Shown: piece after piece, positions 1-24,748 of the stretch
How the letters are laid out: the number at the start of each line of letters is the position of its first letter
Position numbering within the stretch: the first letter of the stretch is position 1
IMG/VR virus record: IMGVR_UViG_3300035701_001649
Span: 1 to 33,805 of that record
Origin: a virus
Reading direction: 5' to 3' (one strand)
DNA length: 33,805 nt
The notes under the pieces: model-generated
Databases searched by the model: none
What the model was told of the DNA's origin: nothing
Seen by the model: only the letters and a program-made list of their open reading frames with translations
Translations under genes and position numbers: made by a program

Positions 1-143
1 AAAACATAATCCGCCTCATCCAAGTTACACGTACCTTGTATATTTTCCCATATACCATCATTATTTGGTGTTTGGTGTCTATAATCTTCAAAAATTGTCC
101 GAGTATCAGCCCAATATGTTGGAGCAAAATAAATTTTCTTCAT
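1..143 (-). CDS. Glycosyltransferase, GT10 (fucosyltransferase)-like, N-terminal fragment
   Basis: The gene starts at ATG 143 and runs off the left edge, so only about 47 codons are visible. The translation begins MKKIYFAPTYW and contains a TP...W-x-NI block followed by ADYV, the arrangement I associate with the N-terminal part of GT10 alpha-1,3-fucosyltransferase-like proteins. The donor-binding C-terminal half is outside the window. It lies 48 nt downstream of the flavoprotein gene on the same strand and is the last visible member of the glycan operon. The family call is an inference from a short stretch; another glycosyltransferase family is possible. Confidence 0.5.
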   Translation of the reverse strand, partial: MKKIYFAPTYWADTRTIFEDYRHQTPNNDGIWENIQGTCNLDEADYV

Positions 144-191
144 TAAGAAGAAACATAAATAAAATAAATGTAAAAACAAACAATATCGGGA

Positions 192-1430
192 TTAAATTTT
201 GGATGAAAGTTCCATTGCCTGAATAATATTATCCTCAATTGAACAATATGTCCAAGAACCGAAACGACCAATAGAGTGTGCCCCCATTGGGTTATGTGAT
301 AAACACCAGTCTGAATATATTTTATTACTTTCCTCGGTAATGTGAGCATATGCTGGATCCATCACAATACATTCGTGATCAATTAATCTGTGATCTTCAA
401 TTATACCACATTTTTTTAAATCCTGTAAAACCACATCAAGTAATTTCTGAGGAATCGACTCACCACGACCCATACCAATTTCAACATAAAGACTCATTTT
501 TTCATGATTTAAAATGTTATTATAAAATCCGATTCTATAAAATATCTCATCGTTTGTAAAATATGTCCAGTGTGACTTTAATTTGGTCCCTTTATCAAAC
601 CCCAAATTGAAAACCACCACTTTATTTGATGTTAATTTAATGGTTTCAACTCTGTTATGTTTATCAAGAAGAGAAAACCGATTAAATGGTATGGTATTAA
701 CAATGGTATTGTATTCTATTTTACCTTTATTTGTTATCGCTATCTTATTTTCAAAATCAATCTCAACTAATGGAGTTCTTAAATGTATTTTACTATTATC
801 TACTCTTTTAAGTATAGATTTGATAAATTCAAACGCGCCAAATTCAGGGTATATCAGGGTATCATTATATGAACCGATTTTTTCTTTTTTCATTAACTTA
901 TCAAGTAATGTGGGGAAGGAAACCTCTTTTGGAAAAAATCTACCCATTGCATTGACATCTAATTTATCAAGATCACAAGCGTATAGTTTTTCATTATATG
1001 GAATGATAAATTTATCACAAATTGCGTCCCCCAAGGTTGATCTGACGTGTTCTTTGAAGGAATGTGTCTCCTTACCGGGGATAGTGTGATAAAGGTCATG
1101 TAAACACTCTATAAACTCATTCTGAGGAAGTTGATCAATGTTCCATTGAAAGGGGAAGTCAATATATTGTCCTTTATAATAGATGTTGGAGTTCCTATTT
1201 ATGTTCAGAACTTCACATTCCATATTTTCCAGTAGATATTTCTTAATGTCCTCATTTTTAAAATGGAAAAAATGTCCAGAGTAGTCCCAAACAAATCCAT
1301 TTCTTCTTGTTGTCTTACAATACCCACCAACCTGATCATCTTGTTCAATAATAAGGTAATCTTTTTTTAGAAATGAGGCTAATGAAAGACCCGTAACACC
1401 CCCACCAATAATTAATACGTCAGTTTTCAT
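192..1430 (-). CDS. FAD-dependent UDP-galactopyranose mutase-like / amine-oxidase-fold protein
   Basis: This 412-residue protein opens with a dinucleotide-binding Rossmann motif, VLIIGGGVTGLSLASFL (about residues 5-21), then an acidic residue (IIEQ) and VGGYCKT, the usual FAD-binding layout of the UDP-galactopyranose mutase and protoporphyrinogen-oxidase group. A PYNEKLYACDLDKLD stretch near the middle is typical of mutase-like flavoproteins in polysaccharide clusters. A mutase would convert UDP-galactopyranose to the furanose sugar donor; the exact substrate cannot be read here. It overlaps the nucleotidyltransferase-HAD gene by 11 nt, so translation is probably coupled. The FAD fold is a strong call; mutase activity is an inference. 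Confidence 0.75.
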   Translation of the reverse strand: MKTDVLIIGGGVTGLSLASFLKKDYLIIEQDDQVGGYCKTTRRNGFVWDYSGHFFHFKNEDIKKYLLENMECEVLNINRNSNIYYKGQYIDFPFQWNIDQLPQNEFIECLHDLYHTIPGKETHSFKEHVRSTLGDAICDKFIIPYNEKLYACDLDKLDVNAMGRFFPKEVSFPTLLDKLMKKEKIGSYNDTLIYPEFGAFEFIKSILKRVDNSKIHLRTPLVEIDFENKIAITNKGKIEYNTIVNTIPFNRFSLLDKHNRVETIKLTSNKVVVFNLGFDKGTKLKSHWTYFTNDEIFYRIGFYNNILNHEKMSLYVEIGMGRGESIPQKLLDVVLQDLKKCGIIEDHRLIDHECIVMDPAYAHITEESNKIYSDWCLSHNPMGAHSIGRFGSWTYCSIEDNIIQAMELSSKI

Positions 1431-2442
1431 GTTTAAAATATATTCCTGTCATTTTATTAAGGTCATCATAAGATGAAATCCCTTTATCATCAATGTAATA
1501 GTCCGCGTATGGTTTCCCAACATATAATTCATGATACTTCACACCACACACATTTAGTGCGTTCTCAATCTTTGGCCGAATCACGTTGTTTATATGTTCA
1601 ATATCACCATTTGTTGATAACATACCCCTAGCCGTTAATAATATAATTTTTACACCGTTGTCGTAAAGATAATTACAAAAATTGATATTTTCAGTTATCG
1701 GTTCAATATTCAACATTACATCCCGGATGAGAGTTTTATCCACATCAAAACAAATGATCTTACCTTTTAATGATTGTTTTTTACAGTAATCCTCCAGTTG
1801 TTTTGGTGTACCAACACAATCAAATTCACCAGATATATCAATATGTTTGAAAGATTGACCATCCTTTATCGCCATTGACACAGCGTAGGAAAGATAGTTT
1901 TCCCGATCCTCCATTGATTGAATACAATATTTTTTTGTTTCTTCTACCGAATTGAAAAGATAAACACCTGAATTGGCTATATTACTAACAGTGTTTTTCT
2001 CTGAAATGTTTTTAATTATTTCGTTTTCAACCGTTAAGTAACTATAAATCCCCGTTAAGTCGTTATCAATGAAGGATAGGATAACATTTCCCTCTTCAGG
2101 GATCTTATCAATTGCGTTAGTGCCAATAATCGTGTCACAATCAACACATAAAAGAGAAGAATCTTCATCTAAGTAATTACACGCTTGTTGAACAGTATCG
2201 GCTGCCCCTGTACTATGTTGTAACACAATTGGGACAACAACATTTGGAGAAAATATTTTATTTAGACTGTATGCACTTTGTTTTGAACACGCCACATACA
2301 CCCTCCCATATTTGTTTACTAATGGTTTTATTACCCTTTCAATTATTAATTTACCATTCGCGTTGATAAACGGTTTATAGTTGTCATATGCGTTATCCCC
2401 AAACCTTTTACCAAGACCCATCATTGGTATTAATACTGTCAT
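1420..2442 (-). CDS. Sugar-phosphate nucleotidyltransferase fused to HAD-family phosphatase
   Basis: This is a two-domain protein of 340 residues. The N-terminal part (about 1-215) begins LIPMMGLGKRFGD...YKPFI, a variant of the G-x-G-x-R...KP signature of NTP:sugar-phosphate transferases, and has a CVDCDT metal-binding segment. The C-terminal part (from about 229) has the HAD nucleophile motif FDVDKTL (D233, D235), LLTARG as motif II and GKPYADYYIDDKG with the acidic motif IV. Such fusions occur in capsule and LPS loci, where one enzyme could dephosphorylate a sugar and activate it, or make two intermediates of one pathway. The stop lies within the start region of the flavoprotein gene (11-nt overlap). 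Confidence 0.8.
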   Translation of the reverse strand: MTVLIPMMGLGKRFGDNAYDNYKPFINANGKLIIERVIKPLVNKYGRVYVACSKQSAYSLNKIFSPNVVVPIVLQHSTGAADTVQQACNYLDEDSSLLCVDCDTIIGTNAIDKIPEEGNVILSFIDNDLTGIYSYLTVENEIIKNISEKNTVSNIANSGVYLFNSVEETKKYCIQSMEDRENYLSYAVSMAIKDGQSFKHIDISGEFDCVGTPKQLEDYCKKQSLKGKIICFDVDKTLIRDVMLNIEPITENINFCNYLYDNGVKIILLTARGMLSTNGDIEHINNVIRPKIENALNVCGVKYHELYVGKPYADYYIDDKGISSYDDLNKMTGIYFKHEN

Positions 2443-2450
2443 TATGATGT

Positions 2451-3227
2451 TTAGATTTTAGTTGTGGTTCTTATATCCACATTTGGTCGACCCCAAGGAT
2501 TATTTCTTAAACCAAACCTACGCAACAACCCCCATGTTTCATATTCCAACCCAAAAGCATAGATTTTATCCGTTAACCCAATTTCATTTACTCTATACCT
2601 CCAAAGAGCGTGTCCAGATGGAAGAGACTCCATCCCAAGCCCATAAGCTTTCAAATAATTTACATAATCACTATTTTCAATATTAAAATACTTATCCAAA
2701 TTATCATATAGGTCACAATATTTTTTCATGTTCTCGTTCCCAGATATAAACCACCCATCATTGAATCCCCACCCTTCATGATTCAAATTCCAATGGGTTA
2801 CGTAGAAATTTTTAGGATCCAACATTGTAAAGTCAATTGGTTCATAATAAACAGTATCAAATCTTGAGATCATAATCAGATCATACGTTTCATCCACTAA
2901 ACTTACTGATTGTTTTAATGAATAAAATCTAGAATAGTTGTTATCAATATGTCTCTTCGTGTCCCAAGCCCCTGATGGGATAAAATTAAGATGATTATAT
3001 GGGTGGTTAAACACAATTTGTTTTTCAACAATATATTTTTTCGGTTTCACCAGATCAATCAGTTTTTTAGTATCGTCTTCATTATCATCCCAACCATGAA
3101 GAAAAATATCAGCATTTTCAGATAATATATTTTCTTTTAGAGATTTAAATGGGGTTTCAAATCCTTGAATGTCTCCGCGATTGTTTACACCGGTAAACTT
3201 ACCATAAAAACATATTGCTATTTTCAT
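2451..3227 (-). CDS. Putative glycosyltransferase-like protein, family unresolved
   Basis: This 258-residue protein begins MKIAICFYGKF and has ADIFLHGWDD at about residues 39-48, followed by a central YDLIMISRFDTVYYEP segment in which R-x-D resembles the metal/nucleotide-sugar site of GT-A-like enzymes. Proteins starting with a strand plus 'DIF-H-W' recur in viral and bacterial glycan loci as unclassified glycosyltransferases. I see no signal peptide or membrane segment. It overlaps the TylF-like methyltransferase by 4 nt (ATGA type) and precedes the nucleotidyltransferase gene by 8 nt. Function is inferred mainly from context and the R-x-D segment. Confidence 0.5.
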   Translation of the reverse strand: MKIAICFYGKFTGVNNRGDIQGFETPFKSLKENILSENADIFLHGWDDNEDDTKKLIDLVKPKKYIVEKQIVFNHPYNHLNFIPSGAWDTKRHIDNNYSRFYSLKQSVSLVDETYDLIMISRFDTVYYEPIDFTMLDPKNFYVTHWNLNHEGWGFNDGWFISGNENMKKYCDLYDNLDKYFNIENSDYVNYLKAYGLGMESLPSGHALWRYRVNEIGLTDKIYAFGLEYETWGLLRRFGLRNNPWGRPNVDIRTTTKI

Positions 3228-3838
3228 TTTTGATTAATTTTAGTTATTTTACAACAGGCTTGATGTGAATTTTCTACATATGCCACCCACTCATATTCAA
3301 CACCACATTCTTCAACGAATTCAATAAATGCTTTATATTCATGGTTCTTCCATTCAGGATAATTAAATAATTCATCAAAAAGAATAATTGTTCCCGGAAC
3401 TATCTTATTCTTACAGTTATCAAATATTGTTTTAGTGGAAGAATAGATATCACAATCAATTATCAGAACTGCGATGTTTTTATCAGTATTGGTAATAAAA
3501 TTTGGTAAAGTGTCATTGAACAAACCGATAACCATTTCAGCTCCTTTTATTTCTGGTACAACACCATTTGTACTAAATGCCCCAACCTGATGAAATATTA
3601 ATGCGTCCCAAGTTTCGGGTAACCCCATAAACGAATCAAATCCATATAATGGTCTATCAATTTCTGGCATCATCTGAACAAACTTTTTAGTTGTAGCTCC
3701 AGTCGCAACACCAAATTCTAACCACAATCCATTTATTTTTGATTGTTCAATACAATATCTACCATATGTGTCATGTCTATGGTTAAATTCCCATGATGTA
3801 AAAGATTTACCTTCCCCAAAATTTAATTCATTATTCAT
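3224..3838 (-). CDS. TylF-like SAM-dependent O-methyltransferase
   Basis: This 204-residue protein has the layout of the TylF / macrocin O-methyltransferase family: a SAM-binding strand and loop WLEFGVATGATTKKF (about residues 37-51), YGFDSFMGLPETW, and the acidic catalytic/metal segment VLIIDCDIYSSTKT followed by GTIILFDE. In this family the acidic residues bind a divalent metal and orient a sugar hydroxyl. In phage and bacterial glycan clusters the enzyme usually methylates a sugar, possibly capping a chain. It is about 40 residues shorter than many TylF proteins but keeps the core motifs. It sits between two glycosyltransferase-like genes. Confidence 0.8.
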   Translation of the reverse strand: MNNELNFGEGKSFTSWEFNHRHDTYGRYCIEQSKINGLWLEFGVATGATTKKFVQMMPEIDRPLYGFDSFMGLPETWDALIFHQVGAFSTNGVVPEIKGAEMVIGLFNDTLPNFITNTDKNIAVLIIDCDIYSSTKTIFDNCKNKIVPGTIILFDELFNYPEWKNHEYKAFIEFVEECGVEYEWVAYVENSHQACCKITKINQK

Positions 3839-3848
3839 TGTATTCTAT

Positions 3849-4664
3849 TTATTCACCAAAAATTATTTGTACCCAATCTTTACCACAACGGTCATAGTAC
3901 CCCCAACGTTCATCCATAATGTTTACGAATTGTGTTACTCTGTCACTTGTATTTTTCAATTTTTCCATTTCATTGATATCCACCTCACGTAACCCCCTTG
4001 TATTTATTAATCCCGGCCAACCAGCATTACTTATTAGTTCAAATTTTCGTATTACCCATTTATCAACAGATCCAATCACATTATATCCATCGTTTTCAGC
4101 CAATTTACTACCGGTAATCTCCCAATCCCACGGAGACCAATCTCTTCTGATATTTTTCAAAAACCATTTTCTATTCCATATTGAAAACGCACCAGCATTT
4201 TGATAAAGGCAATGACCGTGTCCAGATTGATCCATAACAATAAAATCAACACCATCTATGGTAACATATGGATTTAAAAATTGTGGGTCTCTCGAATATT
4301 GAAGAGGTTGAAGATCAATTCTTCCTATTTTCTCATTTAGAAGTTTTTTACATGTATGATATAACCCTTCATCTACAGGTCTAGCAACCATAAAGTCATC
4401 AATACCAAAAATGAAAAACTCATCATCAATAGTGTTGAAATAGTCTATCAGGTAATTTGACCAACCTTTTGCACCGTTAACCTGTTCTGTACCTAACGAT
4501 ATAAATTCAATGTTTTCATCAAACTCAAAATCCGGAGGATTAAACCCCAAGATTTTAACCTTCATGTGTTTACCCCAATACTTGTTGAAGAAATATTGAA
4601 AATATTTCAAGATAAACATATTAGAGTCACATGTTGTAATATAAACTGTAAGTTCTTTATTCAT
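3849..4664 (-). CDS. Putative glycosyltransferase (GT-A-like), family unresolved
   Basis: This 271-residue protein begins ELTVYITTCDSNMFILKYF, like the first strand of a GT-A fold, and contains DDEFFIFGIDDFMVARP at about residues 80-96, where the IDD triad is in the place of the DxD metal motif. Downstream, GHGHCLYQNAGAFSIWNRKWF and DWSPWDWE resemble acceptor-site segments of sugar transferases. No membrane segment is visible. It is spaced 10 nt from the methyltransferase and 6 nt from the next upstream gene, within the same operon. Donor and acceptor cannot be assigned. Confidence 0.55.
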   Translation of the reverse strand: MNKELTVYITTCDSNMFILKYFQYFFNKYWGKHMKVKILGFNPPDFEFDENIEFISLGTEQVNGAKGWSNYLIDYFNTIDDEFFIFGIDDFMVARPVDEGLYHTCKKLLNEKIGRIDLQPLQYSRDPQFLNPYVTIDGVDFIVMDQSGHGHCLYQNAGAFSIWNRKWFLKNIRRDWSPWDWEITGSKLAENDGYNVIGSVDKWVIRKFELISNAGWPGLINTRGLREVDINEMEKLKNTSDRVTQFVNIMDERWGYYDRCGKDWVQIIFGE

Positions 4665-4670
4665 TATTTT

Positions 4671-5933
4671 TTATAACACACTTTTTATCAATTCCAAATC
4701 TTTTAAATCCTTTTCTTCCCCTCTCTTTTCTTTTAATTCTTTAACAACATTTAGAGACGCAAACTTAACCCCCCTTGAATAAAAATGATAATTCGGATTT
4801 AATATAATTTCATCATAGTTAAGTTCATATAAGTTTTTACCATATTCATTGTGACTATGAATTAAATTTAGGTCATCTTTAATTTCTGTTGGGTTAAGAT
4901 GTAGATAATCTAAATCATTACCCTCTCTTAATCCATAGATAGATAACGTTGAACTTGAGGTTACACAATAATCGTCAATATCTAATCCGTTCTTATCAAT
5001 ATATTTTTTAAAATTTTCAATACAGGTATTAAATTTTTCATACTTAACCGGTATAGAGTTATTTAAGTGGTGTATACTATTATCGTTAAAAAATATTTTA
5101 GAAAGCCGGACAGTCTGTTCATGTGTGTCGTTAATGTGAACCGAATGATTACCAAGATTAAAAATGTCTCTAATTTCTTTTTTTGCTTTTATAGTATTTT
5201 CGTGTGAGTCGAAATCAACTAAAAAAACATATGTGAGATTGTTTGTGGTATAACATCGGTTCATTTTATCACTAAAACCACCATAATTAGTGTCATGATC
5301 GCCAGCCCAAGGCTCACCAACATATAATTCTCTCATTAGATTAAGTGGACCATATTTTTTCAATTCAATGGGTTTATAATAGAAAACACCCCCATACTTA
5401 GAGAGTATTTCAAGTACAGGTCGATAATTACCATTCGTTGAAGGAAAAAGAGTAACAACATATGTTGACTTTTTTAATTTAGCATATTCAATTGCTGTGA
5501 TGTCTGAATATACTGTTGGTAAACCAAGATTTTTAAAAAGACCCCCCCAACTACAATCTTTTTGTCCATCAATAACATTGGTGCCATAACAACACATAAC
5601 TGGTTTATTACACACTAAACACGATGCAACCCTATGTGACCCATTTAAAATATATTTGTTATTTTCAATTGGAACCAATGAAATAGTGGGGTCAAAACCA
5701 TTTTTATCTATTGATTCGATCATCCTCTTAAAATCCTCATCAAATGCCTCAAACGTACATTTATGTGGATTATTATATTCTTTAAATCCGTTCCATAGTC
5801 GTAAGTGTTCTTTATATGCGTCTTTAAAAAATGAAGTGTTATAATTTTTTATAATTGACTTACCATATAGATATTTTATAATGAGATCAAATCTATACCA
5901 CGTAATTAATTCATTTGGTTGTTTAATATTCAT
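4671..5933 (-). CDS. Two-part protein: ParB-like N-terminus and nucleotidyltransferase-like C-terminus
   Basis: The 420-residue product appears composite. Residues about 75-135 contain SLVPIENNKYILNGSHRVAS, which looks like the ParB/sulfiredoxin-type 'NG-x-HR' nucleotide-binding turn. The C-terminal third has SSSTLSIYGLREGNDLDYL, a G-x-R-x-G-x-D-x-D pattern suggesting a nucleotidyltransferase fold with two metal-binding Asp residues, followed by NPNYHFYSRGVKFASL and an EKRGEEKDLKDLELI tail seen in related viral proteins. Position among sugar genes suggests a role in nucleotide-sugar or alditol-phosphate chemistry, but I do not recognise a characterised homologue. It overlaps the upstream GT2 gene by 11 nt. 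Confidence 0.6.
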   Translation of the reverse strand: MNIKQPNELITWYRFDLIIKYLYGKSIIKNYNTSFFKDAYKEHLRLWNGFKEYNNPHKCTFEAFDEDFKRMIESIDKNGFDPTISLVPIENNKYILNGSHRVASCLVCNKPVMCCYGTNVIDGQKDCSWGGLFKNLGLPTVYSDITAIEYAKLKKSTYVVTLFPSTNGNYRPVLEILSKYGGVFYYKPIELKKYGPLNLMRELYVGEPWAGDHDTNYGGFSDKMNRCYTTNNLTYVFLVDFDSHENTIKAKKEIRDIFNLGNHSVHINDTHEQTVRLSKIFFNDNSIHHLNNSIPVKYEKFNTCIENFKKYIDKNGLDIDDYCVTSSSTLSIYGLREGNDLDYLHLNPTEIKDDLNLIHSHNEYGKNLYELNYDEIILNPNYHFYSRGVKFASLNVVKELKEKRGEEKDLKDLELIKSVL

Positions 5934-6645
5934 TTACCAGTTTTTCGTATTTTGGTTTACTTCTTATTTTATTAACAGTAGAAATAACTCTACCCATGTC
6001 AACTTTATGGTCATTAATGGGGTTAGATTCATTATATACATAGTTAATTGTTGATAAAAATTTGAAGTGTTCCATACCAGACATTTCAAACATTGGGAAC
6101 ATAAACGCGAGATCTCCTGCGACTCCCCAGTAATCACCATTATCCTCTTTTAAATCGTCTTCCTTTATTTTTTTCCATAACCACGATTTCCATGTTCTAA
6201 GGTGTGATAAAGTGAAGTTTTGTTTCCTTATATCACCATTACTCGTTGGTGGACTAGCAAATCCCTGTCTTCCATCGTGATACATAAATGATCCGCTAGT
6301 CATCCAAACATTGGGATCTTTATAAATTTCATTTAGAGTGGAAAAAACACCAGAATTGGGTAACCAATCATCTCCATCAACTTCAACACATATTTCATCA
6401 TCAGGGATATTCAATCCACGAATAACTTGATCATAATTTCCGGGTTGAAACATTTTCTTTTCATTCTTAATGAGAATGAATCTTTCATCCCCAGCTATTG
6501 TGTTTTTTATTGTTTCCACGGTATTATCTGTAGACATATCGTCAGTAACATAACATGTAAACTCTTTAAAATTCTGATTCATTATAGTATATAAGGACTG
6601 ACCCACATATTTTTCACAGTTATATGTTGTTGTTAATATTGTCAT
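5923..6645 (-). CDS. GT2-family glycosyltransferase
   Basis: This 240-residue protein has a clear GT2 N-terminus: MTILTTTYNCEKYVGQSL, then TDDMSTDNTVETI (the UDP-binding Asp and S/TxDxT block), and EVDGDDWLPN at about residues 89-98, which supplies the D-x-D metal motif. It is a short single-domain enzyme with no membrane anchor. GT2 enzymes transfer sugars from nucleotide-diphosphate donors with inversion. Its start overlaps the stop of the GT4 gene by 4 nt. The donor sugar is not predictable from sequence alone. Confidence 0.88.
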   Translation of the reverse strand: MTILTTTYNCEKYVGQSLYTIMNQNFKEFTCYVTDDMSTDNTVETIKNTIAGDERFILIKNEKKMFQPGNYDQVIRGLNIPDDEICVEVDGDDWLPNSGVFSTLNEIYKDPNVWMTSGSFMYHDGRQGFASPPTSNGDIRKQNFTLSHLRTWKSWLWKKIKEDDLKEDNGDYWGVAGDLAFMFPMFEMSGMEHFKFLSTINYVYNESNPINDHKVDMGRVISTVNKIRSKPKYEKLVNEY

Positions 6646-7523
6646 GATATTATTTTTATATATTCATCCATTATTTGTTTTGCCACATTTGGAGCAAAGA
6701 ATTTTTCAATATCTGTTGGTACCTCAAAGAAGTCCTTGGAAATTATATTACCACTCATATCGATTTCATATATCCATCCGGGTTTTCCACACATCCAACC
6801 TTCAATAGTTGTTCTACCCAATAAAATACCCGCAGTTTCTTTACACCTATGTATATATTGCTCCACATTTGTGGTTGGATTAAAATATTTTACATGTGGG
6901 TTTGACGCTAATTGTTGAAGATAATCCGAGTGATTTTTTCCGATCACCCATAACTCCATTCCCTTTTCTTTTGTATATTCAACCATGTCAAATATTGATG
7001 CCCTTCTTAGATAGTCAACTGTTCCAACAAATAGTGCAACGTTTTCACTATCAACCTCTAAAGGGAAAAATTTTTCATTATCGATTGGATTATATATTAA
7101 TGAAATCTTTTCTCTTGGTATTTGAAATTTATCAACCAACATCTCAACAATTTTGGGTCTAATAGCGATATACTTAACAATCGATGGGTGAATGATTGGA
7201 TATTCAGCATCAAGAACCTCAGAATGTATTGTTGATATTTTTTTTGTTCCCGGAAACCTTCTTATCAATTCCAACGTAATGGGTTGGTGTTGAGTGTGAA
7301 TAATATCAAATTTACTGTGTTGAGGTAAACTTTCAAAGGTGTTTACCTTTATCCCGAAACTTCGTGCCACTTGAGGTAATTGACCATCTGTATGTGGTGA
7401 TACAATTGTAACATCACAACCAAGTTTTACTAAATGTCTTGCCAATTCAAGTACATACATTTCAGATCCAGTCCTACTAAAAAAATAGAGACAACCTATT
7501 AATACTTTTATTTTTTTTTCCAT
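6642..7523 (-). CDS. GT4-like (GT-B fold) glycosyltransferase
   Basis: This 293-residue protein shows the two Rossmann-like halves of a GT-B enzyme. The N-terminal half has KVLIGCLYFFSRTGSEMYVLELARHL, with a G-S-E turn where the usual G-G-x-E is found, followed by FDIIHTQHQP. A linker, ISLIYNPIDNEKFFP, is typical of GT4. The C-terminal half has VALFVGTVDYLRRAS, LWVIGKN and the E-containing loop GRTTIEGWMCGKPGWIYE in the donor-binding position. It is some 70-80 residues shorter than common GT4 enzymes. It lies 2 nt downstream of the tandem GT2 gene and overlaps the next GT2 gene. Confidence 0.85.
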   Translation of the reverse strand: MEKKIKVLIGCLYFFSRTGSEMYVLELARHLVKLGCDVTIVSPHTDGQLPQVARSFGIKVNTFESLPQHSKFDIIHTQHQPITLELIRRFPGTKKISTIHSEVLDAEYPIIHPSIVKYIAIRPKIVEMLVDKFQIPREKISLIYNPIDNEKFFPLEVDSENVALFVGTVDYLRRASIFDMVEYTKEKGMELWVIGKNHSDYLQQLASNPHVKYFNPTTNVEQYIHRCKETAGILLGRTTIEGWMCGKPGWIYEIDMSGNIISKDFFEVPTDIEKFFAPNVAKQIMDEYIKIIS

Positions 7524-7525
7524 AA

Positions 7526-9046
7526 TTAAGCTCCTACAATATATTTTCTAAGTTTATTAAAATTAGAGTCGATAAATGGTTTTAAATGATGTTCATAATC
7601 ATATGTTGCCATTTCTAACATTTTTGGGTCACCGTTTCTTGTTCTACTCTCCAAATGATATGCTACGGATCTTCCATCACAATAATTTTCAAGATTATTT
7701 AAAATACATTTATAACTCAATTCAACGTCTTCAAAACATGATAAGTAATTTTCATTGAAATAACCACATTTTTCAAATACGTTTTTTCTTATCATCATCA
7801 GTGCCCCCGTGTTACCACCAACAACATTTAAATTGGAGACATAACGATAATAACTTCCTGACCCTAAATGTGAAGGTTCAACTTGTTTTGTTTCTTTTTG
7901 AAAGGTACTAACGATACCATTATGTTGTATTGTATTATCTTCATAGTGTAACCTACATCCAACCGTTCCCGCATTGGCGTTCGATTTAAAAACATTTAAC
8001 ATTCCACCAATAACATCATTTAATATGATAATATCGTTGTTACAGAATAAAAGAAATTTAAAATTTGATCCAACGTGATTTTTAACAACATCATTGTTTA
8101 TTTGGGCGAAGTTATAATAATCATATTCAATTAGATGAATTGGAACTTTTTCTTTATTATTTTCAATGTATATACGGATCAGTTCCTTCTCTTCATTAAT
8201 TGATCCCGTATCAGCAATAAAAATTTCAAATATCTCAATATTACAATGTTCAATAAATGAATTAACACAATCAATAAGAAGATTAACATTACCTTTTGTT
8301 GGTATGATTATTGCAATTCTACCAAAGTTTCTAAATGCCCCATAGTTAATATGTTCAACATATACTTCTTCTGGTTTAATATCTAGTGGTAACACCTTAC
8401 CATATTTTTCCACAAACTTGTCTTTTGTTTTAAAGAATTCTTCATTTGGCATACCAACAGATTGGTGAGTAATATCAAAAGAGGTTGTAACCCCTATTTT
8501 AACTCCATCAAGAAAGTTTGGTACACAAAACAGATGATCATAAAAGTGAAACTTACCAATAGATTCATCAAAAGTGTGTTTTATTTTGGTTTTATCAAAT
8601 GAGATGAAAAGACCATCTATTGTTACCACCGGAATTAGATATGGTAATTTAGTGGAATATCTACTTAGGAATTTTGGGTGCCCATCTGGGTGGTGATAAA
8701 CCTGTCCAACCATCGTTTCATTTATTCTTTCCCAATAAATGCCAGATTCGGGAAAATAACAAGAACCAGCCTTACCAATAATTCCATAATCAGGATTATC
8801 GGTGAAGTTTTTAAGTAGTTTCCTACCCCAACCAGTTTCTAATTTAATATCATTGTGACAACACACAACAATGTCATATATTGAGTCCACAATACCTTTA
8901 TTATAGATGTGAGATAAGGAGAACTCATTGTTGTTTTGATACTCAAGAATTTGATATTCTTTAATTCCAATACTTTTTTCTAAATGGTCTTTGAATTTTT
9001 TATTGTAGTCTTGATCTTTATGTGTTGAATAAATTACTGTTATCAT
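7526..9046 (-). CDS. Tandem-domain glycosyltransferase (two GT2-like modules)
   Basis: I start this gene at ATG 9046 (506 residues, MITVIYSTH...) because that ATG forms an ATGA overlap with the stop of the fucosyltransferase gene; an upstream ATG at 9070 would add eight residues. The N-terminal module (about 1-235) has a VIYSTH strand and DIVVCCHNDIKLE, an N-D metal-type motif. The second module (from about 245) begins IAIIIPTKGNVNLLIDC, continues with IFIADTGS and LLFCNNDIII, and ends with the GGNTGALMMIRKNVF and CFEDVELSYKC segments of GT2 enzymes. Such two-headed enzymes can add alternating sugars. Confidence 0.85.
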   Translation of the reverse strand: MITVIYSTHKDQDYNKKFKDHLEKSIGIKEYQILEYQNNNEFSLSHIYNKGIVDSIYDIVVCCHNDIKLETGWGRKLLKNFTDNPDYGIIGKAGSCYFPESGIYWERINETMVGQVYHHPDGHPKFLSRYSTKLPYLIPVVTIDGLFISFDKTKIKHTFDESIGKFHFYDHLFCVPNFLDGVKIGVTTSFDITHQSVGMPNEEFFKTKDKFVEKYGKVLPLDIKPEEVYVEHINYGAFRNFGRIAIIIPTKGNVNLLIDCVNSFIEHCNIEIFEIFIADTGSINEEKELIRIYIENNKEKVPIHLIEYDYYNFAQINNDVVKNHVGSNFKFLLFCNNDIIILNDVIGGMLNVFKSNANAGTVGCRLHYEDNTIQHNGIVSTFQKETKQVEPSHLGSGSYYRYVSNLNVVGGNTGALMMIRKNVFEKCGYFNENYLSCFEDVELSYKCILNNLENYCDGRSVAYHLESRTRNGDPKMLEMATYDYEHHLKPFIDSNFNKLRKYIVGA

Positions 9047-9897
9047 ATATTTGGTTTTATTAATGTCCATGTTTCAGGATAATAATCGGGATTATAAAAT
9101 TTTTCTAAACATTCTGATCTCAAGTTCTCACCACAATGTATTACTTTACCGTTATTGAAATTTTTTACATACCACATCTGCCACCAAGTGAATGTAGAAC
9201 TACCCCCTATAAAATTATCACATAAAATTCCTAAAATAAACTGTTCCATTGGATTATTTCTATAATACTTAAAATTATCCGTATGAAGATGTGTGTTATT
9301 TGGTTCAACAAATAAAAACCCATTTTCTTTATAATAATTCTTACACCATTCAATGTCATCTGAAAATATTATAACATTGTAATCAATATAATTTGGAAAC
9401 TCAAGTTTTAGTGCCTTTACATACCAATCTTCTGGTATCTGATAAAAACAACCATGATCAACAAAATCCCCCCTTCTTATTCCAATACCAATTGTTGGTT
9501 TAGTAAAAAATTCTTTATATTTGGATTTAACCTTTTCAATTTCCTCATCTTTTATTTCTAAATGACTTTTAATGAAATCAATATTTTCAATAAACCATTT
9601 TTCTGATTGTAATGATGGGGATAGATTAATATTAACTATCTTTTCTTTGTTTTCATTAAAGAAATTCTTCAGAAAAGTTTTTTCTTCATGTGTATAGTTT
9701 AACTGCCTGAAATGGAAGATTTCATCCTCGGTTGTTTCGTTATTAATTGTTGGTGGAATTTTTAGATAATCCCATAAAAAATAATCTGGAACCACAATAT
9801 TATTTCCACTATCTTTTAATATGGAAATGATACCAGTGTATTGAAACAACCAATTACCTAATCTCAAATGTTTTCCCCAATCTTTATAAGTTATCAT
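9043..9897 (-). CDS. GT11-family alpha-1,2-fucosyltransferase-like protein
   Basis: This 284-residue protein has the GT11 order: an N-terminal RLGNWLFQYTGIISIL segment (the 'GLGNQLFQY' motif of the family), a central IGIGIRRGDFVDHG (HxRRGDY-type donor-binding motif), VIIFSDDIEWCKNYY, and FIGGSSTFTWWQMWY near the C-terminus. Characterised members move fucose from GDP-fucose in alpha-1,2 linkage, and length and motif spacing agree with them. No GDP-fucose synthesis genes are visible here, so the donor would come from the host or from outside the window. Start and stop are coupled to both neighbours by 4-nt overlaps. Confidence 0.88.
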   Translation of the reverse strand: MITYKDWGKHLRLGNWLFQYTGIISILKDSGNNIVVPDYFLWDYLKIPPTINNETTEDEIFHFRQLNYTHEEKTFLKNFFNENKEKIVNINLSPSLQSEKWFIENIDFIKSHLEIKDEEIEKVKSKYKEFFTKPTIGIGIRRGDFVDHGCFYQIPEDWYVKALKLEFPNYIDYNVIIFSDDIEWCKNYYKENGFLFVEPNNTHLHTDNFKYYRNNPMEQFILGILCDNFIGGSSTFTWWQMWYVKNFNNGKVIHCGENLRSECLEKFYNPDYYPETWTLIKPNI

Positions 9898-10622
9898 CTG
9901 ATTTTTATTCTTACGTCATATAATGTAGTAAACCATTTAATGTGATCACTATCTGGTAGTTCATAATGATAATCCCAACCTTTACTTATTGAATCCTCAC
10001 TTCTTCCTTTTTCTTTTATCATATTCTGTCTTTTTAATCCATATTCAAAATTCATCCATTTTGTATGATATAAACTTACTGATTTTTGACAAAATATAAT
10101 AGGAACTCCGTTTTTTGATTTAGAATCACATGAATGACTACCCGGACTATAATTCATTTCTTCTATTTGGTCTCTACGAAACAGAGCCACTTTGTCATAT
10201 CCACCACCATGAACCCCATAGAAGGCATCTTTGAAATGTTTATCATAACCATATAACTCATACCCAATACACTTACAAACATTCCATGTATTGTTTTCAT
10301 AACATTCTTCAAGATCTTTTTGATTTACGTCAACCAATTCATCACTATCACACATAACAACAAACTTTGCATCACTATTCTTCCATGAATTGTTTCTTAG
10401 ATTTATTAATGTTTGTTCATCCATTTTACCTCCGGTGTCAAACTGACTGAAGTTAACGTTGTTTTCTTTACATATTTTTTCAGTATCATCGGTTGACATA
10501 TTATCCAAAACGTTGATAATACAATCTGGAACCCTTTCTCTGTAAAAATTAATGAGCTCCATAATTGTGTCCGATTCCTGATAACTAATTGTGAAGACCT
10601 CTAAAAGTTTTTTGTTTGTCAT
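9894..10622 (-). CDS. GT2-like glycosyltransferase
   Basis: This 242-residue protein begins LLEVFTISYQESDTIMELINFY, followed by NVLDNMSTDDTEKIC, which carries the GT2 nucleotide-binding D-N-x-S-T-D-D-T block, and VVMCDSDELVDV with a D-S-D metal motif at about residues 91-93. Later histidines and a SLYHTKWMNFEYG segment resemble the C-termini of 'glycosyltransferase family 2 / DUF' proteins that act on sugar or lipid acceptors. It lies directly after the capsid-like gene (4-nt overlap) and is the first sugar gene of the operon. Confidence 0.82.
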   Translation of the reverse strand: MTNKKLLEVFTISYQESDTIMELINFYRERVPDCIINVLDNMSTDDTEKICKENNVNFSQFDTGGKMDEQTLINLRNNSWKNSDAKFVVMCDSDELVDVNQKDLEECYENNTWNVCKCIGYELYGYDKHFKDAFYGVHGGGYDKVALFRRDQIEEMNYSPGSHSCDSKSKNGVPIIFCQKSVSLYHTKWMNFEYGLKRQNMIKEKGRSEDSISKGWDYHYELPDSDHIKWFTTLYDVRIKIR

Positions 10623-10999
10623 ATAATTCCTCTAAAATATCTGAACCTATCAATTATGTTTTTACTGTATTGGTAATCCATATAGAATAATATTCCAGAA
10701 GGAAGACCCATTGGTTGAACAGAAACCAAGTCCATACCCATTGTTTGGGCGGCAACCCTACGAGCCATTGGAAGAAGACTACCCATTATCCTATCATCAA
10801 TTTCATTTGCCAACTGTTGTGATAACATTGTAGTTAATTCATCCTCAACATTAATACCATGAAAAGCCTCAATCTCCTCTACCATTTCTGGTGTCCATCG
10901 AGCACGTAATCTTCTCGTTCTTCCCTCAACTTGAACGGTTCTAATATTCATCTCAATAACGTTGGTGAATCCCCGGAAATATTTAAAGTTTAAATCCAT
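10619..10999 (-). CDS. Short protein with T4 gp23 (major capsid) motifs in permuted order
   Basis: The product has 126 residues. Residues about 22-70 (VEGRTRRLRARWTPEM, then EAFHGINVEDELTTMLS and EIDDRI) strongly resemble the gp23 segment that in T4 lies in the second half of the capsid protein (KLKA-x-YSIELAQDL...HG...AEL). Residues about 75-110 (LPMARRVAAQ, then DLVSVQPMGLPSGILFYMDY) resemble the gp23 segment that in T4 lies near the N-terminus (VRRAIPNLI...VQPM-x-x-PTG). The two therefore appear in reverse order on a protein a quarter of the normal length. It cannot be a working capsid subunit by itself. It sits between the RHH gene (TAATG overlap) and the first glycosyltransferase. Confidence 0.6.
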   Translation of the reverse strand: MDLNFKYFRGFTNVIEMNIRTVQVEGRTRRLRARWTPEMVEEIEAFHGINVEDELTTMLSQQLANEIDDRIMGSLLPMARRVAAQTMGMDLVSVQPMGLPSGILFYMDYQYSKNIIDRFRYFRGII

Positions 11000-11196
11000 T
11001 AGAATTTTGAGTTCGTTGCAGATAACCCATCATGAGTATTTATTTTTTCTCTGAAAGCGAGATCCTTATTATATAAGTCCAATGCCCTATTAACCAATTT
11101 TTGTAGGTTAATATCTTCCTCAATTGAAACCTTCTTAAAATTTTTGTAAACCTCAGTTAAAATGTTAACGCTGGTTAATTTGCTTTTGTTGTCCAT
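10999..11196 (-). CDS. Ribbon-helix-helix-type DNA-binding protein
   Basis: I place the start at ATG 11196 (65 residues, MDNKSKLTS...). A GTG at 11241 would extend the frame through a promoter and a terminator, so it is unlikely. The sequence KLTSVNILTEVYKNFKK, then EEDINLQKLVNRALDLYN, fits one beta strand and two helices, the fold of Arc/MetJ-type repressors that act as dimers. It is the first gene of the long minus-strand glycan operon, with the promoter -7 box only 5 nt upstream of the ATG. An autoregulatory role on this operon is plausible but inferred. Its stop overlaps the next start as TAATG. Confidence 0.65.
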   Translation of the reverse strand: MDNKSKLTSVNILTEVYKNFKKVSIEEDINLQKLVNRALDLYNKDLAFREKINTHDGLSATNSKF

Positions 11197-11201
11197 ATTC
11201 G

Positions 11202-11232
11202 TAAATATATCTTTATATATAATATACCCAAA
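11202..11232 (-). promoter_or_regulatory. Bacteroidota-type promoter for the minus-strand glycan operon
   Basis: Read on the minus strand, TTTG (11232-11229) is followed by 19 nt and TATATTTA (11209-11202), seven of eight positions of the TAnnTTTG -7 consensus. The RHH start codon at 11196 lies only 5 nt beyond the -7 box, so the transcript would be nearly or fully leaderless. The next upstream gene is closed by a terminator, so this is the likely start of the roughly 11-kb operon. Confidence 0.65.
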
Positions 11233-11257
11233 AAAAACCACAACATCAAGTTGTGAT
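11230..11257 (-). terminator. Rho-independent terminator after the Cys-rich small gene
   Basis: On the minus strand an 8-bp stem (ATCACAAC / GTTGTGGT, one G-T wobble) with a 5-nt loop TTGAT is followed by a run of eight T. It begins 8 nt after the stop of the 56-residue gene at 11265-11435. The T run overlaps the -33 element of the following promoter, so the two transcription units meet here. Confidence 0.75.
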
Positions 11258-11264
11258 CTCTTTT

Positions 11265-11435
11265 TTATTGTTGGTTTATTTGGTTTATTTTTTCAACAAT
11301 CTCATTAACCTGTTTTTGTTGCTCAGGAGTTAAATCGGTTACCGTTTGATTTGGTTGAGTTAAATTAGGTTTACTTTCCGTTACAACAATGTTTTGTTGT
11401 GGAGGGTTATTTTTTTTCTTACAATTACATCCCAT
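11265..11435 (-). CDS. Small Cys/Lys-headed protein (MGCNCKKK...), unknown function
   Basis: This gene encodes 56 residues. It begins MGCNCKKKNN, continues through a Pro/Gln/Asn/Thr-rich low-complexity middle, and ends in a predicted helix, LTPEQQKQVNEIVEKINQI. The C-x-C-K-K-K head could bind a metal or be lipid-modified, but there is no signal peptide, so cytoplasmic metal binding is the simpler guess. I recall similar MGCNCKKK peptides in Bacteroidota phages without a known role. It forms its own transcription unit, closed by the terminator at 11230-11257 and divergent from the methyltransferase gene. Confidence 0.65.
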   Translation of the reverse strand: MGCNCKKKNNPPQQNIVVTESKPNLTQPNQTVTDLTPEQQKQVNEIVEKINQINQQ

Positions 11436-14027: not shown

Positions 14028-14840
14028 ATGAATTCACCAATAAAATATTTCGGAGGAAAAGGAACAATGTTTAATAATATTATAGAGCATTTTCCAAAAA
14101 GAGATGAGTATGATATTTATATAGAACCATTCGGTGGTTCGTTTTCTGTCGGATTAAAAAATGATCCTGTTAACATTGAAATTTATAATGATTTAGAACA
14201 GAACGTTTATTCATTATATAAAGTTTTATCAAACCCAGAAGATTTTAAACTCTTTAAAATGAAATGTGATCTTGTGTTGTATTGTGATGACATTAGAAAA
14301 GAATTTAAAGAAAAATTGAAAGGAGATGACCTAACGATACTTGAGAGAGCGTTTTATTTTTTTTATGTAAATAGAACATCACATAACGGTGTTGGCGGAT
14401 TTTCAAAAAACACATACATAAGAAGATCAATGAGTAAATCGATTTCAGATTTTCTTTCTTGTATTGATAGATTACCTGAACTACATGATAGATTATCCAA
14501 AGTAATTGTATCAAATACTGATGGTGTTGCATTGATTAAAAAACACAATAATCCAAGGACATTAATTTATTGTGACCCCCCATATGAACAATCAACAAGA
14601 ACATCCACCAGATATAAAGTGGATATGAACAGGGAAGGACACATAGAATTTTTAAATGCAGTTATTGAAAGTAAGAGTAAGATATTAATAAGTGGGTATG
14701 ATTGTGAATTATATGATGTTTTATCTGATAATGGATTCACTAAAATTCATTTCGATGTAAAAACGATTAGTGGAAATTTTAAACCAAAAACTAAAACCGA
14801 GTATTTATATTATAATTATAATAATGAGACCAAGAAATAA
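14028..14840 (+). CDS. dam: Dam-type DNA N6-adenine methyltransferase (D12 class)
   Basis: This 270-residue protein is in the D12-class order: SPIKYFGGKGTM at the N-terminus, the SAM-binding motif I as IEPFGGSFSVGL (residues about 32-43), VNRTSHNGVGGFSK around 114-127, and motif IV as YCDPPYEQS (D183-P-P-Y186). The length is normal for T4 Dam and bacterial Dam. The enzyme would methylate adenine, classically in GATC, although target specificity cannot be read. No cognate restriction gene is nearby. The last six residues (NNETKK) lie in the overlap with the LAGLIDADG gene and may be an addition resulting from its insertion. Confidence 0.9.
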   Translation: MNSPIKYFGGKGTMFNNIIEHFPKRDEYDIYIEPFGGSFSVGLKNDPVNIEIYNDLEQNVYSLYKVLSNPEDFKLFKMKCDLVLYCDDIRKEFKEKLKGDDLTILERAFYFFYVNRTSHNGVGGFSKNTYIRRSMSKSISDFLSCIDRLPELHDRLSKVIVSNTDGVALIKKHNNPRTLIYCDPPYEQSTRTSTRYKVDMNREGHIEFLNAVIESKSKILISGYDCELYDVLSDNGFTKIHFDVKTISGNFKPKTKTEYLYYNYNNETKK

Positions 14841-15651
14841 ATGTAAAATAAATCATAATTTTTTTAATGAGATTAATACCGAATCAAATGCGTATTGGTT
14901 AGGTTTTTTAATGGCTGATGGTCACATTAACGATAAAATAAAAAGTGGTGCCCTACAGTTACATATACATTTGTCTAAAAGGGATAAAGAACATTTAAAA
15001 AATTTTCATACAGATATTTGCTCTACAAATAAAATTTTGATTGGAAATGATAATGACATTATTAGTAATCATTCGTCTGATATATTGTGCGGTGATTTAA
15101 TAAAATTGGGGTGTACTCCAAGGAAGTCATTAATTTTAAAATTTCCAAATAAAGTACCTAAACATTTAGTAAACCATTTTATTAGAGGATATTTTGATGG
15201 AGATGGATCAACCTGTTTACATAAAGGTAGGTTATTTATTGATTTTTTAGGTACTAAAACTTTCTTAACTAAATTAAATAAATTTTTACCCATTCAAAAA
15301 AATGTAAGAATTAAAAAAGAAAATTTATATGTTCTAAACTTTAGTGACATAAAAGGATGTAAAGAAATTTATAAATTTATGTATCATAATTCAACGATAC
15401 ATTTAGTGAGAAAAAAAGAAGTTTTTGAAAAATGGTTAAAGATAGAAAAAAAGGGTTCAGGTAAATACATACATAAAAAAATAATGAAAGAAGTTGTTCA
15501 AAAAGATTTAAATGGTAATAAAATAAAAGAGTGGCCGTCTTTATTATCAATAAATAAAGAATTGGGATATTCTATCGGGTCAATTTCATTAGTATGTCAA
15601 AAGAAACGAAAAACATCAAAGGGATTTATTTGGGATTATAAAAATTATTAA
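14824..15651 (+). CDS. LAGLIDADG homing endonuclease with NUMOD1/IENR1 C-terminus
   Basis: I choose ATG 14824 (275 residues, MRPRNKCKIN...), which overlaps the Dam stop by 17 nt; the earlier in-frame start would lie deep in Dam. Two LAGLIDADG helices are visible: WLGFLMADGHI (residues about 22-32) and FIRGYFDGDGST (about 119-130), each with its catalytic acidic residue, so the protein is a single-chain enzyme. The C-terminus (DLNGNKIKEWPSLLSINKEL, then SLVCQKKRKTSKGFIWDY) is an IENR1/NUMOD1 DNA-binding module. Base composition is more AT-rich than Dam. It is free-standing, with the next gene 1 nt away. Confidence 0.9.
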   Translation: MRPRNKCKINHNFFNEINTESNAYWLGFLMADGHINDKIKSGALQLHIHLSKRDKEHLKNFHTDICSTNKILIGNDNDIISNHSSDILCGDLIKLGCTPRKSLILKFPNKVPKHLVNHFIRGYFDGDGSTCLHKGRLFIDFLGTKTFLTKLNKFLPIQKNVRIKKENLYVLNFSDIKGCKEIYKFMYHNSTIHLVRKKEVFEKWLKIEKKGSGKYIHKKIMKEVVQKDLNGNKIKEWPSLLSINKELGYSIGSISLVCQKKRKTSKGFIWDYKNY

Positions 15652-17108: not shown

Positions 17109-17296
17109 GTTGCCCCTATTGTGATACCGATTTGTCTGACATGGAAAACCATGATAACATGTATCAATGGTCTACGTGTCCAGTTTGCCAAAATCAAGTG
17201 TGGTTAGATTATGACGAACAATGTACTGATGATTTTGATGAATGTTGGGAAATTTGGGAATGGTTAAAGGAAGAAAAAGATTATGGAACTAAATAA
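17105..17296 (+). CDS. Small zinc-ribbon protein
   Basis: The 63-residue product has two C-x-x-C knuckles: CPYC at residues 3-6 and CPVC at about 25-28, the spacing of a single zinc ribbon. The C-terminal half is strongly acidic and Trp-rich (DDFDECWEIWEWLKEEKD), suggesting a protein-binding rather than nucleic-acid-binding surface. Small zinc ribbons are common in large phages, where they may act as transcription co-factors or nuclease inhibitors. It overlaps the terminase-like gene by 14 nt. Confidence 0.65.
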   Translation: MSCPYCDTDLSDMENHDNMYQWSTCPVCQNQVWLDYDEQCTDDFDECWEIWEWLKEEKDYGTK

Positions 17297-17822
17297 CGTA
17301 CAGTTAAACATATTAAATCAGATCTATTCTCACCGATTAACTTATATTATATCGGGAAGACAATTGGGGACATCTAGTGCGGTTATGGCCCTTGCCATGA
17401 GAGAAGCGACTGATTGTCATAAAACAATTGGAGTGATGACACAGAGTGGTTGTTTTTATCGTTGGCACGATTTCATGAAAGAACATGCACCCAATATGTT
17501 TGATCCGGTTAAAACAAAAAAGAAAGAAATTCGGTTTATAAACGGTGGAAAAATTCTTTTACATTCTGTAACAAGATGTGGGGTTTGTAGTAGTAGGTTT
17601 GACATTTTTATTATTGATAACGTTGCTATTTTTAAGATTTCTCGCGATTCTATTCACACAATTATACCATCAATGGCAAATGAATCTAAATTTGTTGTTA
17701 CTTCAACGGGAGACACGGGTGATTTTGAATTTGAAAGGTATGGATTTCACACATATCGTGTGAATGAAGAATCAAAACATTATAAAAGAAAAATTAAACA
17801 TTTAATAAAGAATTTAACATGA
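17283..17822 (+). CDS. Terminase large-subunit ATPase-like protein lacking catalytic residues
   Basis: This 179-residue protein follows the order of the T4 gp17 ATPase domain. The segment IISGRQLGTSSAVMALAM (residues about 22-39) stands where gp17 has SRQLGKTT, so the Walker A Lys is missing. IRFINGGKILLHSVT matches the gp17 'GSIELDNGSSIGAYA' strand pair. IFIIDNVAIF matches the Walker B 'YIEDCAFI' with the acidic pair changed to D-N. FVVTSTGDTG matches the 'IITTTPNG' coupling motif. The nuclease domain (over 200 residues) is absent. It is thus probably a non-hydrolysing paralogue that could bind a packaging partner. It overlaps thyA by 4 nt. Confidence 0.6.
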   Translation: MELNNVQLNILNQIYSHRLTYIISGRQLGTSSAVMALAMREATDCHKTIGVMTQSGCFYRWHDFMKEHAPNMFDPVKTKKKEIRFINGGKILLHSVTRCGVCSSRFDIFIIDNVAIFKISRDSIHTIIPSMANESKFVVTSTGDTGDFEFERYGFHTYRVNEESKHYKRKIKHLIKNLT

Positions 17823-18970: not shown

Positions 18971-19467
18971 TGAAAATGAAAATTTTAAAAACAAAAGAAA
19001 TCTTTACTGTTAAAGATGAATTCGGACCGGCCAAATTAATTAGATCACATAAAAAACCACTACTATTTTCCCCATACGTTAATCCACCATCTTCTTTAAC
19101 CGCGTATACGCATATGTGGTGCGGAACAACTCAATCAACGACTAACCAAAACGTAACACCGTTTTGGATGTTGGGAACGAGTGGAATTTCAAGCATTTAC
19201 AGTACTAGTAGATATCAACGGGTTTCAGGGATGAGTGGGATAACAGGAGGATTCGGTACACAAGGATCATCCATGTTTATTCCTCAATCTTCTGTTACAA
19301 CATCACAACCACAGGTAAATGTGGTTCAAATTCCATATGAACCACCGGACTCTCGGAATATTAATTGGAATATTATGGGTGAACCGAAAACATATAAATA
19401 TACAATTCCATTTGAAGAAAAGATACGTGACATCACACATAAATTTAAAAGTGATATATGTTCCTAA
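18970..19467 (+). CDS. Unknown phage protein, Ser/Thr/Gly-rich middle
   Basis: This 165-residue protein has a basic N-terminus (KMKILKTKEIF), an aromatic segment (PLLFSPYVNPPSSLTAYTHMW), then a long low-complexity stretch rich in Ser, Thr, Gly and Gln (about residues 55-110) and a polar C-terminus (KYTIPFEEKIRDITHKFKSD). Low-complexity Ser/Thr/Gly regions of this sort are frequent in phage virion proteins but are not diagnostic. An alternative ATG lies two codons downstream. It overlaps both neighbours (1 and 10 nt). I recognise no family. Confidence 0.55.
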   Translation: MKMKILKTKEIFTVKDEFGPAKLIRSHKKPLLFSPYVNPPSSLTAYTHMWCGTTQSTTNQNVTPFWMLGTSGISSIYSTSRYQRVSGMSGITGGFGTQGSSMFIPQSSVTTSQPQVNVVQIPYEPPDSRNINWNIMGEPKTYKYTIPFEEKIRDITHKFKSDICS

Positions 19468-20057
19468 AAGATCTATTAACCGATATTTTTAAAACAACTG
19501 GTCATTTTAATTATGGTGGTATGCTTGACTACCTACTCATGGGTGATAACCTTGAACTTTTCAAGGACATGTTAATGGGGTGTGATGAATTTATGGATGT
19601 GGAAAGATTTGAGATTATTCGTCAACCAATAATACCTAGAGTTATCGGCCTTCCGATGGAATCAGAAATAATAAAAATTAATAGTGGTACACGATTCACA
19701 GGTAATTTTAAAATATTTTCAATATCATTGACCCCAGAAATGTTTGACCCAAATTTAATGTACAAACCAGTACATGAGGGAGCGTCTATTTCTCCAACAA
19801 TATATGACGAAACAACGTTTACCCCAAAGAAAACTATCACAATGACTTGGTCTCCCGAATTGGCGCAAGACGTGAGAGCATTTCAACCATTGGAAAATAC
19901 CTATAGATATAGACAAGAATTTCACGATTTATTGGATAGAATATTGAATACCCCGGAGCAATATCAAATGAAAGGTTTTAGATCAATAATGGTTAGAGGC
20001 ATCTTTACTTGTGATCAGAGATACCCACCAAATGAGGAATATGTGGTTCGTTTATAA
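19458..20057 (+). CDS. Unknown phage protein with a capsid-like WSPELAQDVRAF motif
   Basis: The 199-residue product begins with helices (FLKDLLTDIFKTTG, NYGGMLDYLLMGDNLELFKDM). It then has beta-like segments (RFEIIRQPIIPRVIGLPM, GNFKIFSISLTPEMFDPN) and, at about residues 123-140, KKTITMTWSPELAQDVRAF. That stretch resembles the gp23 motif 'K.L.A.ys.ELAQDL.a', also present in the 10619-10999 protein as RRLRARWTPEM. Nothing else in it looks like a capsid protein, so the resemblance may be local. It ends the operon running from 13392; a 112-nt non-coding gap follows. Confidence 0.5.
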   Translation: MFLKDLLTDIFKTTGHFNYGGMLDYLLMGDNLELFKDMLMGCDEFMDVERFEIIRQPIIPRVIGLPMESEIIKINSGTRFTGNFKIFSISLTPEMFDPNLMYKPVHEGASISPTIYDETTFTPKKTITMTWSPELAQDVRAFQPLENTYRYRQEFHDLLDRILNTPEQYQMKGFRSIMVRGIFTCDQRYPPNEEYVVRL

Positions 20058-24719: not shown

Positions 24720-24748
24720 AAATCCATCTATATTTTATGGATGGATTT
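24720..24748 (+). repeat. Inverted repeat spanning the start codon of PcfJ-like copy 2
   Basis: AAATCCATC (24720-24728) and GATGGATTT (24740-24748) form a perfect 9-bp inverted repeat around an 11-nt AT loop. The right arm contains the start codon at 24741, and the loop contains TATATTTT (24729-24736), like the -7 boxes at 13416 and 32386. As RNA from an upstream start it would hide the start codon; as DNA it could be an operator over a promoter. It lacks a T run, so it is not a standard terminator. Confidence 0.6.

Follow-up and report, generated by a model that had tools for sequence, protein, structure and literature searches.

A viral glycan operon that probably carries a permuted fragment of a T4-type capsid gene

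The virus record IMGVR_UViG_3300035701_001649, classed as linear and analyzed here over its complete length of 33,805 bases (referred to below as the window), carries at one end a long operon of sugar-related genes, which includes a short open reading frame (ORF) similar to the T4-type major capsid protein gp23. Thirteen ORFs on the minus strand, at positions 192-11241, form one unit, in which neighboring genes overlap by 1 to 28 nucleotides (nt) or are separated by gaps of 2 to 10 nt (Table 1); a preliminary description of this DNA, made from its letters alone, had likewise proposed a single tightly packed minus-strand unit of 12 to 14 genes. From this gene packing, we infer that the operon is a single transcript. 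Several glycosyltransferase genes are packed together with nucleotide-sugar genes, as in phage glycan clusters. The last gene of the operon stops 191 bases short of the contig end, and the operon may continue past it. No tRNA genes were found in the 33,805-base record.

Table 1. Features of the operon and structural-gene fragments in the window, with their best-supporting matches (E-values unless marked)
Feature	Position	Strand	Evidence
UGM-like/amine oxidase-fold FAD enzyme (putative), 412 aa	192..1430	-	PF13450 1e-11, PF01593 1.6e-9
Sugar-phosphate nucleotidyltransferase fused to HAD phosphatase-type domain, 340 aa	1420..2442	-	PF00483 3.2e-8
Operon protein without family, 258 aa	2451..3227	-	No Pfam, NCBIfam, or PDB match
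TylF-type methyltransferase, 204 aa	3224..3838	-	PF05711 5.5e-11; PF13578 (Methyltransf_24) 3.6e-10
Operon protein without family, 271 aa	3849..4664	-	No Pfam or NCBIfam match, no credible PDB match
Operon protein without family, 420 aa	4671..5933	-	No Pfam or NCBIfam match
GT2 glycosyltransferase, 240 aa	5923..6645	-	PF00535 2.2e-14
GT4-type glycosyltransferase, 293 aa	6642..7523	-	PF13439 3e-16, 60.3 bits
Protein with two GT2-type domains, 514 aa	7526..9070	-	PF13712 1.8e-20 and PF00535 7.7e-11
GT11 (alpha-1,2-fucosyltransferase-like), 284 aa	9043..9897	-	PF01531 7e-12; phrog_2644 8.8e-32
GT2-like glycosyltransferase, 242 aa	9894..10622	-	PF13704 2.3e-5, under cut-off
Predicted permuted gp23 minigene, 126 aa	10619..10999	-	PF07068 1.7e-23; spine aa 15-75, then N-arm aa 76-114
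RHH (Arc-like) protein	10999..11241	-	Weak: phrog_3180 1.4e-4; NCBIfam PrgO 1.5e-4, under cut-off
Terminator-like hairpin upstream of operon	11239..11255	.	T runs flank both sides
Second gp23-derived fragment, 204 aa	15653..16267	+	tblastn 9e-9 to Flavobacterium phage major capsid protein; local profile 3e-14
Probable TerL ATPase-domain fragment, 179 aa	17283..17822	+	phrog_7579 9.8e-4; T4 gp17 0.035

The family calls in the operon were judged against the curated Pfam and NCBIfam cut-offs, with further comparisons to PHROG and to solved PDB chains. The GT2, GT4, and GT11 glycosyltransferases, the TylF-type methyltransferase, and the nucleotidyltransferase all score above the curated Pfam cut-offs (45.6 bits for the GT11 protein against PF01531, where the cut-off is 23.9), which bears out the corresponding assignments in the preliminary description, with the HAD part of the nucleotidyltransferase fusion and the GT2-like product of 9894-10622 staying below threshold. 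The HAD domain is of the capsule phosphatase (EcbF-BcbF) type, with a score under its cut-off, and the same protein matches TIGR03992 (3e-14) and TIGR01689 (3e-10), both under the NCBIfam cut-offs. The flavoenzyme encoded by the last gene had been compared to UDP-galactopyranose mutase (UGM), and its closest solved chains are indeed eukaryotic UGMs (1e-19); however, it falls under every NCBIfam cut-off, including the UGM family threshold, and is listed here as a UGM-like flavoenzyme of putative activity. A "GT10-like" gene was not recovered, as no operon protein has a Pfam match to the GT10 fucosyltransferases. A simple Kyte-Doolittle scan reveals no membrane-type hydrophobic segments in the operon proteins, and there is no flippase, polymerase, ligase, lipid-priming transferase, or oligosaccharyltransferase among those matched to a family.

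The second gene of the operon, referred to here as the minigene, overlaps the preceding ribbon-helix-helix (RHH) gene by 1 nt (TAATG) and the following glycosyltransferase gene by 4 nt (ATGA), as would be expected of a translationally coupled gene. Two segments of its product, of 40 to 60 residues, match gp23 strongly but in reversed order: residues 15 to 75 correspond to positions 134 to 194 of the PF07068 profile (the spine), and residues ~76 to 115 correspond to positions 7 to 48 (the N-arm), or, in T4 gp23 numbering, ~254 to 308 followed by ~90 to 134. The same reversed segments are returned by blastp against the gp23 proteins of a Flavobacterium phage, Rhodothermus phage RM378, a Microcystis phage, and an uncultured phage, and both match a local profile of twelve gp23 proteins (independent E-values, 3e-21 and 6e-14). 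The N-arm keeps all 5 of its gp23-invariant residues and the spine keeps 10 of 14. The product has 126 aa compared to 480 to 650 aa in gp23, most of the HK97-type capsid fold is absent, and its gene neighbors encode RHH and GT2 proteins rather than the prohead protease and portal protein of a head gene cluster. With its segments in the opposite order and without the remainder of the fold, the predicted product cannot act as a capsid subunit; its length and reversed order also rule out a capsid paralog or a vertex protein. Thus, while the gp23-like ORF that had been noted next to an RHH gene is real, it does not encode a shortened capsid protein, and the RHH match itself is weak. If gp23 was once duplicated in tandem, a later deletion that ran from the spine of the first copy to the N-arm of the second could have produced the reversed order. 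A short motif is found twice in the minigene, as F-K-Y-F-R-G close to the start and as F-R-Y-F-R-G at the end, and nowhere else in the window. An AlphaFold model of the product (pLDDT 57) was not used.

Taken together, these comparisons make it probable that the phage carries a glycan operon in this 11-kb unit and that the gp23-like member of the unit is a small translated fragment gene, which joins two parts of a major capsid protein of the T4 type and is unrelated to capsid assembly. Several points weigh against this interpretation. The unit reaches the contig end, and membrane-bound steps may lie beyond it; three of its genes (2451-3227, 3849-4664, and 4671-5933) have no family assignment; and no close relatives of the minigene were found in scans of viral contigs. 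In addition, the minigene ORF may conceivably be an assembly chimera, although the intact frame and the coupled overlaps speak against this.

The linkage of gp23-like and glycan genes was assessed in 50 loci that contain a GT11 homolog, with flanks of up to 10 kb on each side. None of the 12,034 ORFs of at least 30 codons in these loci matches the gp23 profile, and tblastn with the minigene found nothing either; the synteny check proposed in the preliminary description thus fails. Full gp23 is present elsewhere in many GT11-bearing contigs, where it and the GT11 homolog are separate, distant genes (in contig G001, gp23 lies at 18.3-20.0 kb and GT11 at ~44 kb). Genes for the double-GT2 protein, GT2, GT4, and nucleotidyltransferase recur in some of the 50 loci and the TylF-type gene in one, whereas the flavoenzyme and the three genes without a family are seen in none of them; by these sequence comparisons, the composition of the operon is modular. 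Homologs of the 7526-9070 protein, with 61 to 63% identity, adjoin GT11 or lie near it in loci L003 and L005.

In the proposed pathway, the nucleotidyltransferase-HAD fusion and the flavoenzyme would prepare activated sugars, which the GT2, GT4, and GT11 enzymes would transfer in sequence, and the TylF-type enzyme would add O-methylation. All these steps would be cytoplasmic. The acceptor, for which the visible part of the operon has no gene, would be virion proteins or else a carrier that the host makes and that leads into its own export machinery. The suggestion that the operon could build a fucosylated, methylated glycan is thereby supported insofar as this is a glycan-building operon with fucosyltransferase- and methyltransferase-type genes. 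As no membrane steps are recognized, virion proteins or reliance on host export remain as options. DNA is an unlikely target of glycosylation, as the Pfam and NCBIfam comparisons matched none of the operon proteins to a T4-type DNA glucosyltransferase family.

Decoration of capsid, tail, or fiber proteins, as in mycobacteriophages, can be proposed tentatively. The lack of membrane segments in the operon proteins is compatible with a cytosolic acceptor, and glycosylation of capsid and tail-tube proteins has a precedent in the work of Freeman et al. 2023, as cited in PMC12619734. However, the capsid-like gene that prompted this idea, and that had been taken to favor it, is a permuted fragment; its product cannot be a capsid subunit, and it therefore provides no argument for virion glycosylation. 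The operon contains no full structural gene, and gp23 and glycan genes are unlinked in relatives. Remodeling of the host surface, whereby the operon would change the capsule or O-antigen of the host and, for example, exclude competing phages, is a somewhat doubtful option. The operon families are those of bacterial polysaccharide loci, and phage glycosyltransferases can alter the host serotype, according to the work cited in PMC12619734 and PMC10955285, but this activity would require host enzymes, as no flippase, polymerase, ligase, lipid-priming enzyme, or membrane protein is recognized.

At the head of the operon, the GTG start of the RHH gene at 11241 sits inside the terminator-like hairpin, which makes the ATG at 11196 (65 aa) the likelier start. 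A 56-aa minus-strand ORF (MGCNCKKK...; 11265-11435) lies upstream of the operon, and the terminator-like hairpin follows it.

Besides the minigene, the phage keeps further structural-gene fragments, namely, another piece of gp23 and what is probably a piece of the terminase large subunit (TerL). In the alignment, the second gp23 fragment sets in approximately where the spine of gp23 comes to an end. In the putative terminase piece, the alignment covers a stretch of the ATPase domain only, with no nuclease domain, and the conserved Walker A Lys and Walker B Glu are replaced; the piece is probably a fragment of the ATPase half of TerL, although the match is weak by itself. The ORF 19458-20057 (plus strand), considered as a third permuted gp23 piece, has two gp23-like motifs ("TPTIYDETTFTPKK" and "WSPELAQDV") in permuted order and a weak, short similarity to the local gp23 profile; it belongs, however, to a conserved family found downstream of thymidylate synthase in other phages, and its origin from gp23 is doubtful. 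Homologs of this ORF in loci L057, L058, and L060 have 258 to 341 aa, compared to 199 aa in the window. Three apparent gp23 paralogs in loci L088, L089, and L070 (321, 287, and 194 aa) were rejected as well, as the profile that had matched them included a wrong ORF from L069; the local-profile results given here come from a profile free of that ORF.

Comparable minigenes were detected in two other phage contigs, G013 and G039. The 388,594-base contig G013 encodes a full gp23 as well as more than 20 ORFs that share a leader of the form M-R-K-x-F-Y. The DNA pattern of this leader has 21 exact matches in G013 but none when it is reversed, and twelve other records contain no match; the G013 leaders vary at synonymous positions, which indicates that they are conserved as peptides. 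The recognizable bodies behind these leaders include several gp23 pieces, a tail-tube piece (5e-8), a terminase piece (1.6e-10), and what is probably the N-terminus of a sheath protein (9e-4 against that of G013 itself), while most bodies match nothing recognized, including those in a cluster at 223-229 kb. Around this cluster (L119, G013:C1:219000-233000), ~18 small ORFs combine the MRKxFY leader with unrelated bodies. The 87,981-base contig G039 encodes a gp23-spine minigene (2.5e-6), in which the peptide K-x-L-L-I-E-K-Y is found once at the start and once midway through the spine; its neighbor contains the same peptide and a weak match to sheath (0.013). At 8275-8962 of the corresponding locus (L144), minigenes with repeated K-x-LLIEKY are seen, one of the repeats being inserted inside the gp23 spine segment. 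The short peptides of G013 and G039 may be comparable to F-K/R-Y-F-R-G of the minigene. A loss of Walker A common to the TerL fragments of both phages was considered and rejected: the Lys is lost only in the 17283-17822 fragment, whereas the G013 fragment retains the Lys of the K(S/T/Y)RQ motif typical of this group.

What these fragments do can be explained in more than one way. There is a little short of an even chance that the gp23 and TerL fragments are nonfunctional relics of recombination or homing endonuclease activity that stay open by chance. A LAGLIDADG endonuclease gene (14770-15651) immediately precedes the 15653 fragment, and a GIY-YIG gene lies at 12377; the 15653 fragment has lost 15 of 20 gp23-invariant residues, just as the TerL fragment has lost its ATPase residues; and scans of viral contigs found no relatives that conserve the fragments (nor any relatives of the PurZ-like gene of the window or of the GT2 gene adjacent to the minigene). 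On the other hand, the minigene still has conserved gp23 residues and shows tight coupling to its operon neighbors, and leader-tagged minigenes of a comparable kind are present in G013 and G039.

Alternatively, the fragments could serve as decoys or antagonists of host immune sensors that recognize phage structural proteins, or they could inhibit the assembly of rival phages in a dominant-negative manner; we regard this explanation as unlikely. Such sensors are known for major capsid proteins (Lit, CapRel, PifA, and others), for terminase and portal proteins (Avs), and for tail proteins (DSR2 and others) (PMC11364771; PMC9712102), and the fragments come from the protein classes that are sensed, namely, gp23, TerL, tail tube, and sheath. 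Furthermore, the N-arm of the minigene falls inside the first quarter of gp23, where the T4 Gol region that binds EF-Tu is located (PMC3014915). Against this, the proposal stems from sequence comparison, a capsid fragment could trigger the sensors instead of blocking them, and the bodies of most leader-tagged ORFs in G013 have no recognized origin. Our literature searches, with partial coverage, found no description of phage decoys made of structural-protein fragments. The known sensors of structural proteins and the link between Gol and EF-Tu make the decoy idea a testable one. Its broadest form, in which large T4-like phages hold a repertoire of small proteins derived from pieces of structural proteins (capsid, terminase, tube, and sheath), tagged by phage-specific peptides and blunting immune sensors or hindering rivals, with the permuted gp23 minigene as one of them, seems improbable at present. 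If functional, the minigenes of this phage, G013, and G039 would represent an undescribed class of phage accessory proteins, derived from the same structural proteins that bacterial immunity senses and directly testable by expression. Whatever the function, a misleading argument for capsid glycosylation is removed, and a "capsid-like" match among operon genes can turn out to be a scrambled fragment.

Elsewhere in the window, 21409-22560 (plus strand) encodes a PurZ-like 2-aminoadenylosuccinate synthetase (phrog_1211, 1.8e-56), which may point to 2-aminoadenine DNA, and 22742-24694 and 24741-26162 (plus strand) encode adjoining proteins with common short motifs, the first of which matches PcfJ (1.2e-10).

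Compared to the Gol peptide of T4 and Lit exclusion, the N-arm of the minigene corresponds to an N-terminal part of gp23 that holds the conserved Gol region. However, T4 Gol is part of the full gp23 and activates Lit. As for the operon, homologs of its GT11 protein are found in 98 cultured-phage records, mostly from T4-like cyanophages. The two that were inspected, Synechococcus phages S-T4 and Bellamy, encode glycan clusters; no capsid gene is annotated in their vicinity, and neither an RHH gene nor a gp23 fragment is annotated there. These clusters resemble the operon in the head-to-tail arrangement of a GT11/fucosyltransferase gene, other transferases, nucleotide-sugar enzymes, and a methyltransferase or phosphatase but differ from it in host group, gene order, and composition, with GT11 proteins that are ~28 to 32% identical. 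Glycosyltransferases are also among the core genes of large T4-related phages from aquatic habitats for which Bacteroidota hosts have been assigned (PMC12619734). Given the similar GT11 clusters in T4-like cyanophages and these core genes, the operon belongs to a kind that is already known in related phages. With the virion glycosylation systems of mycobacteriophages it has in common the phage-encoded glycosyltransferases, but its gene set is much larger.

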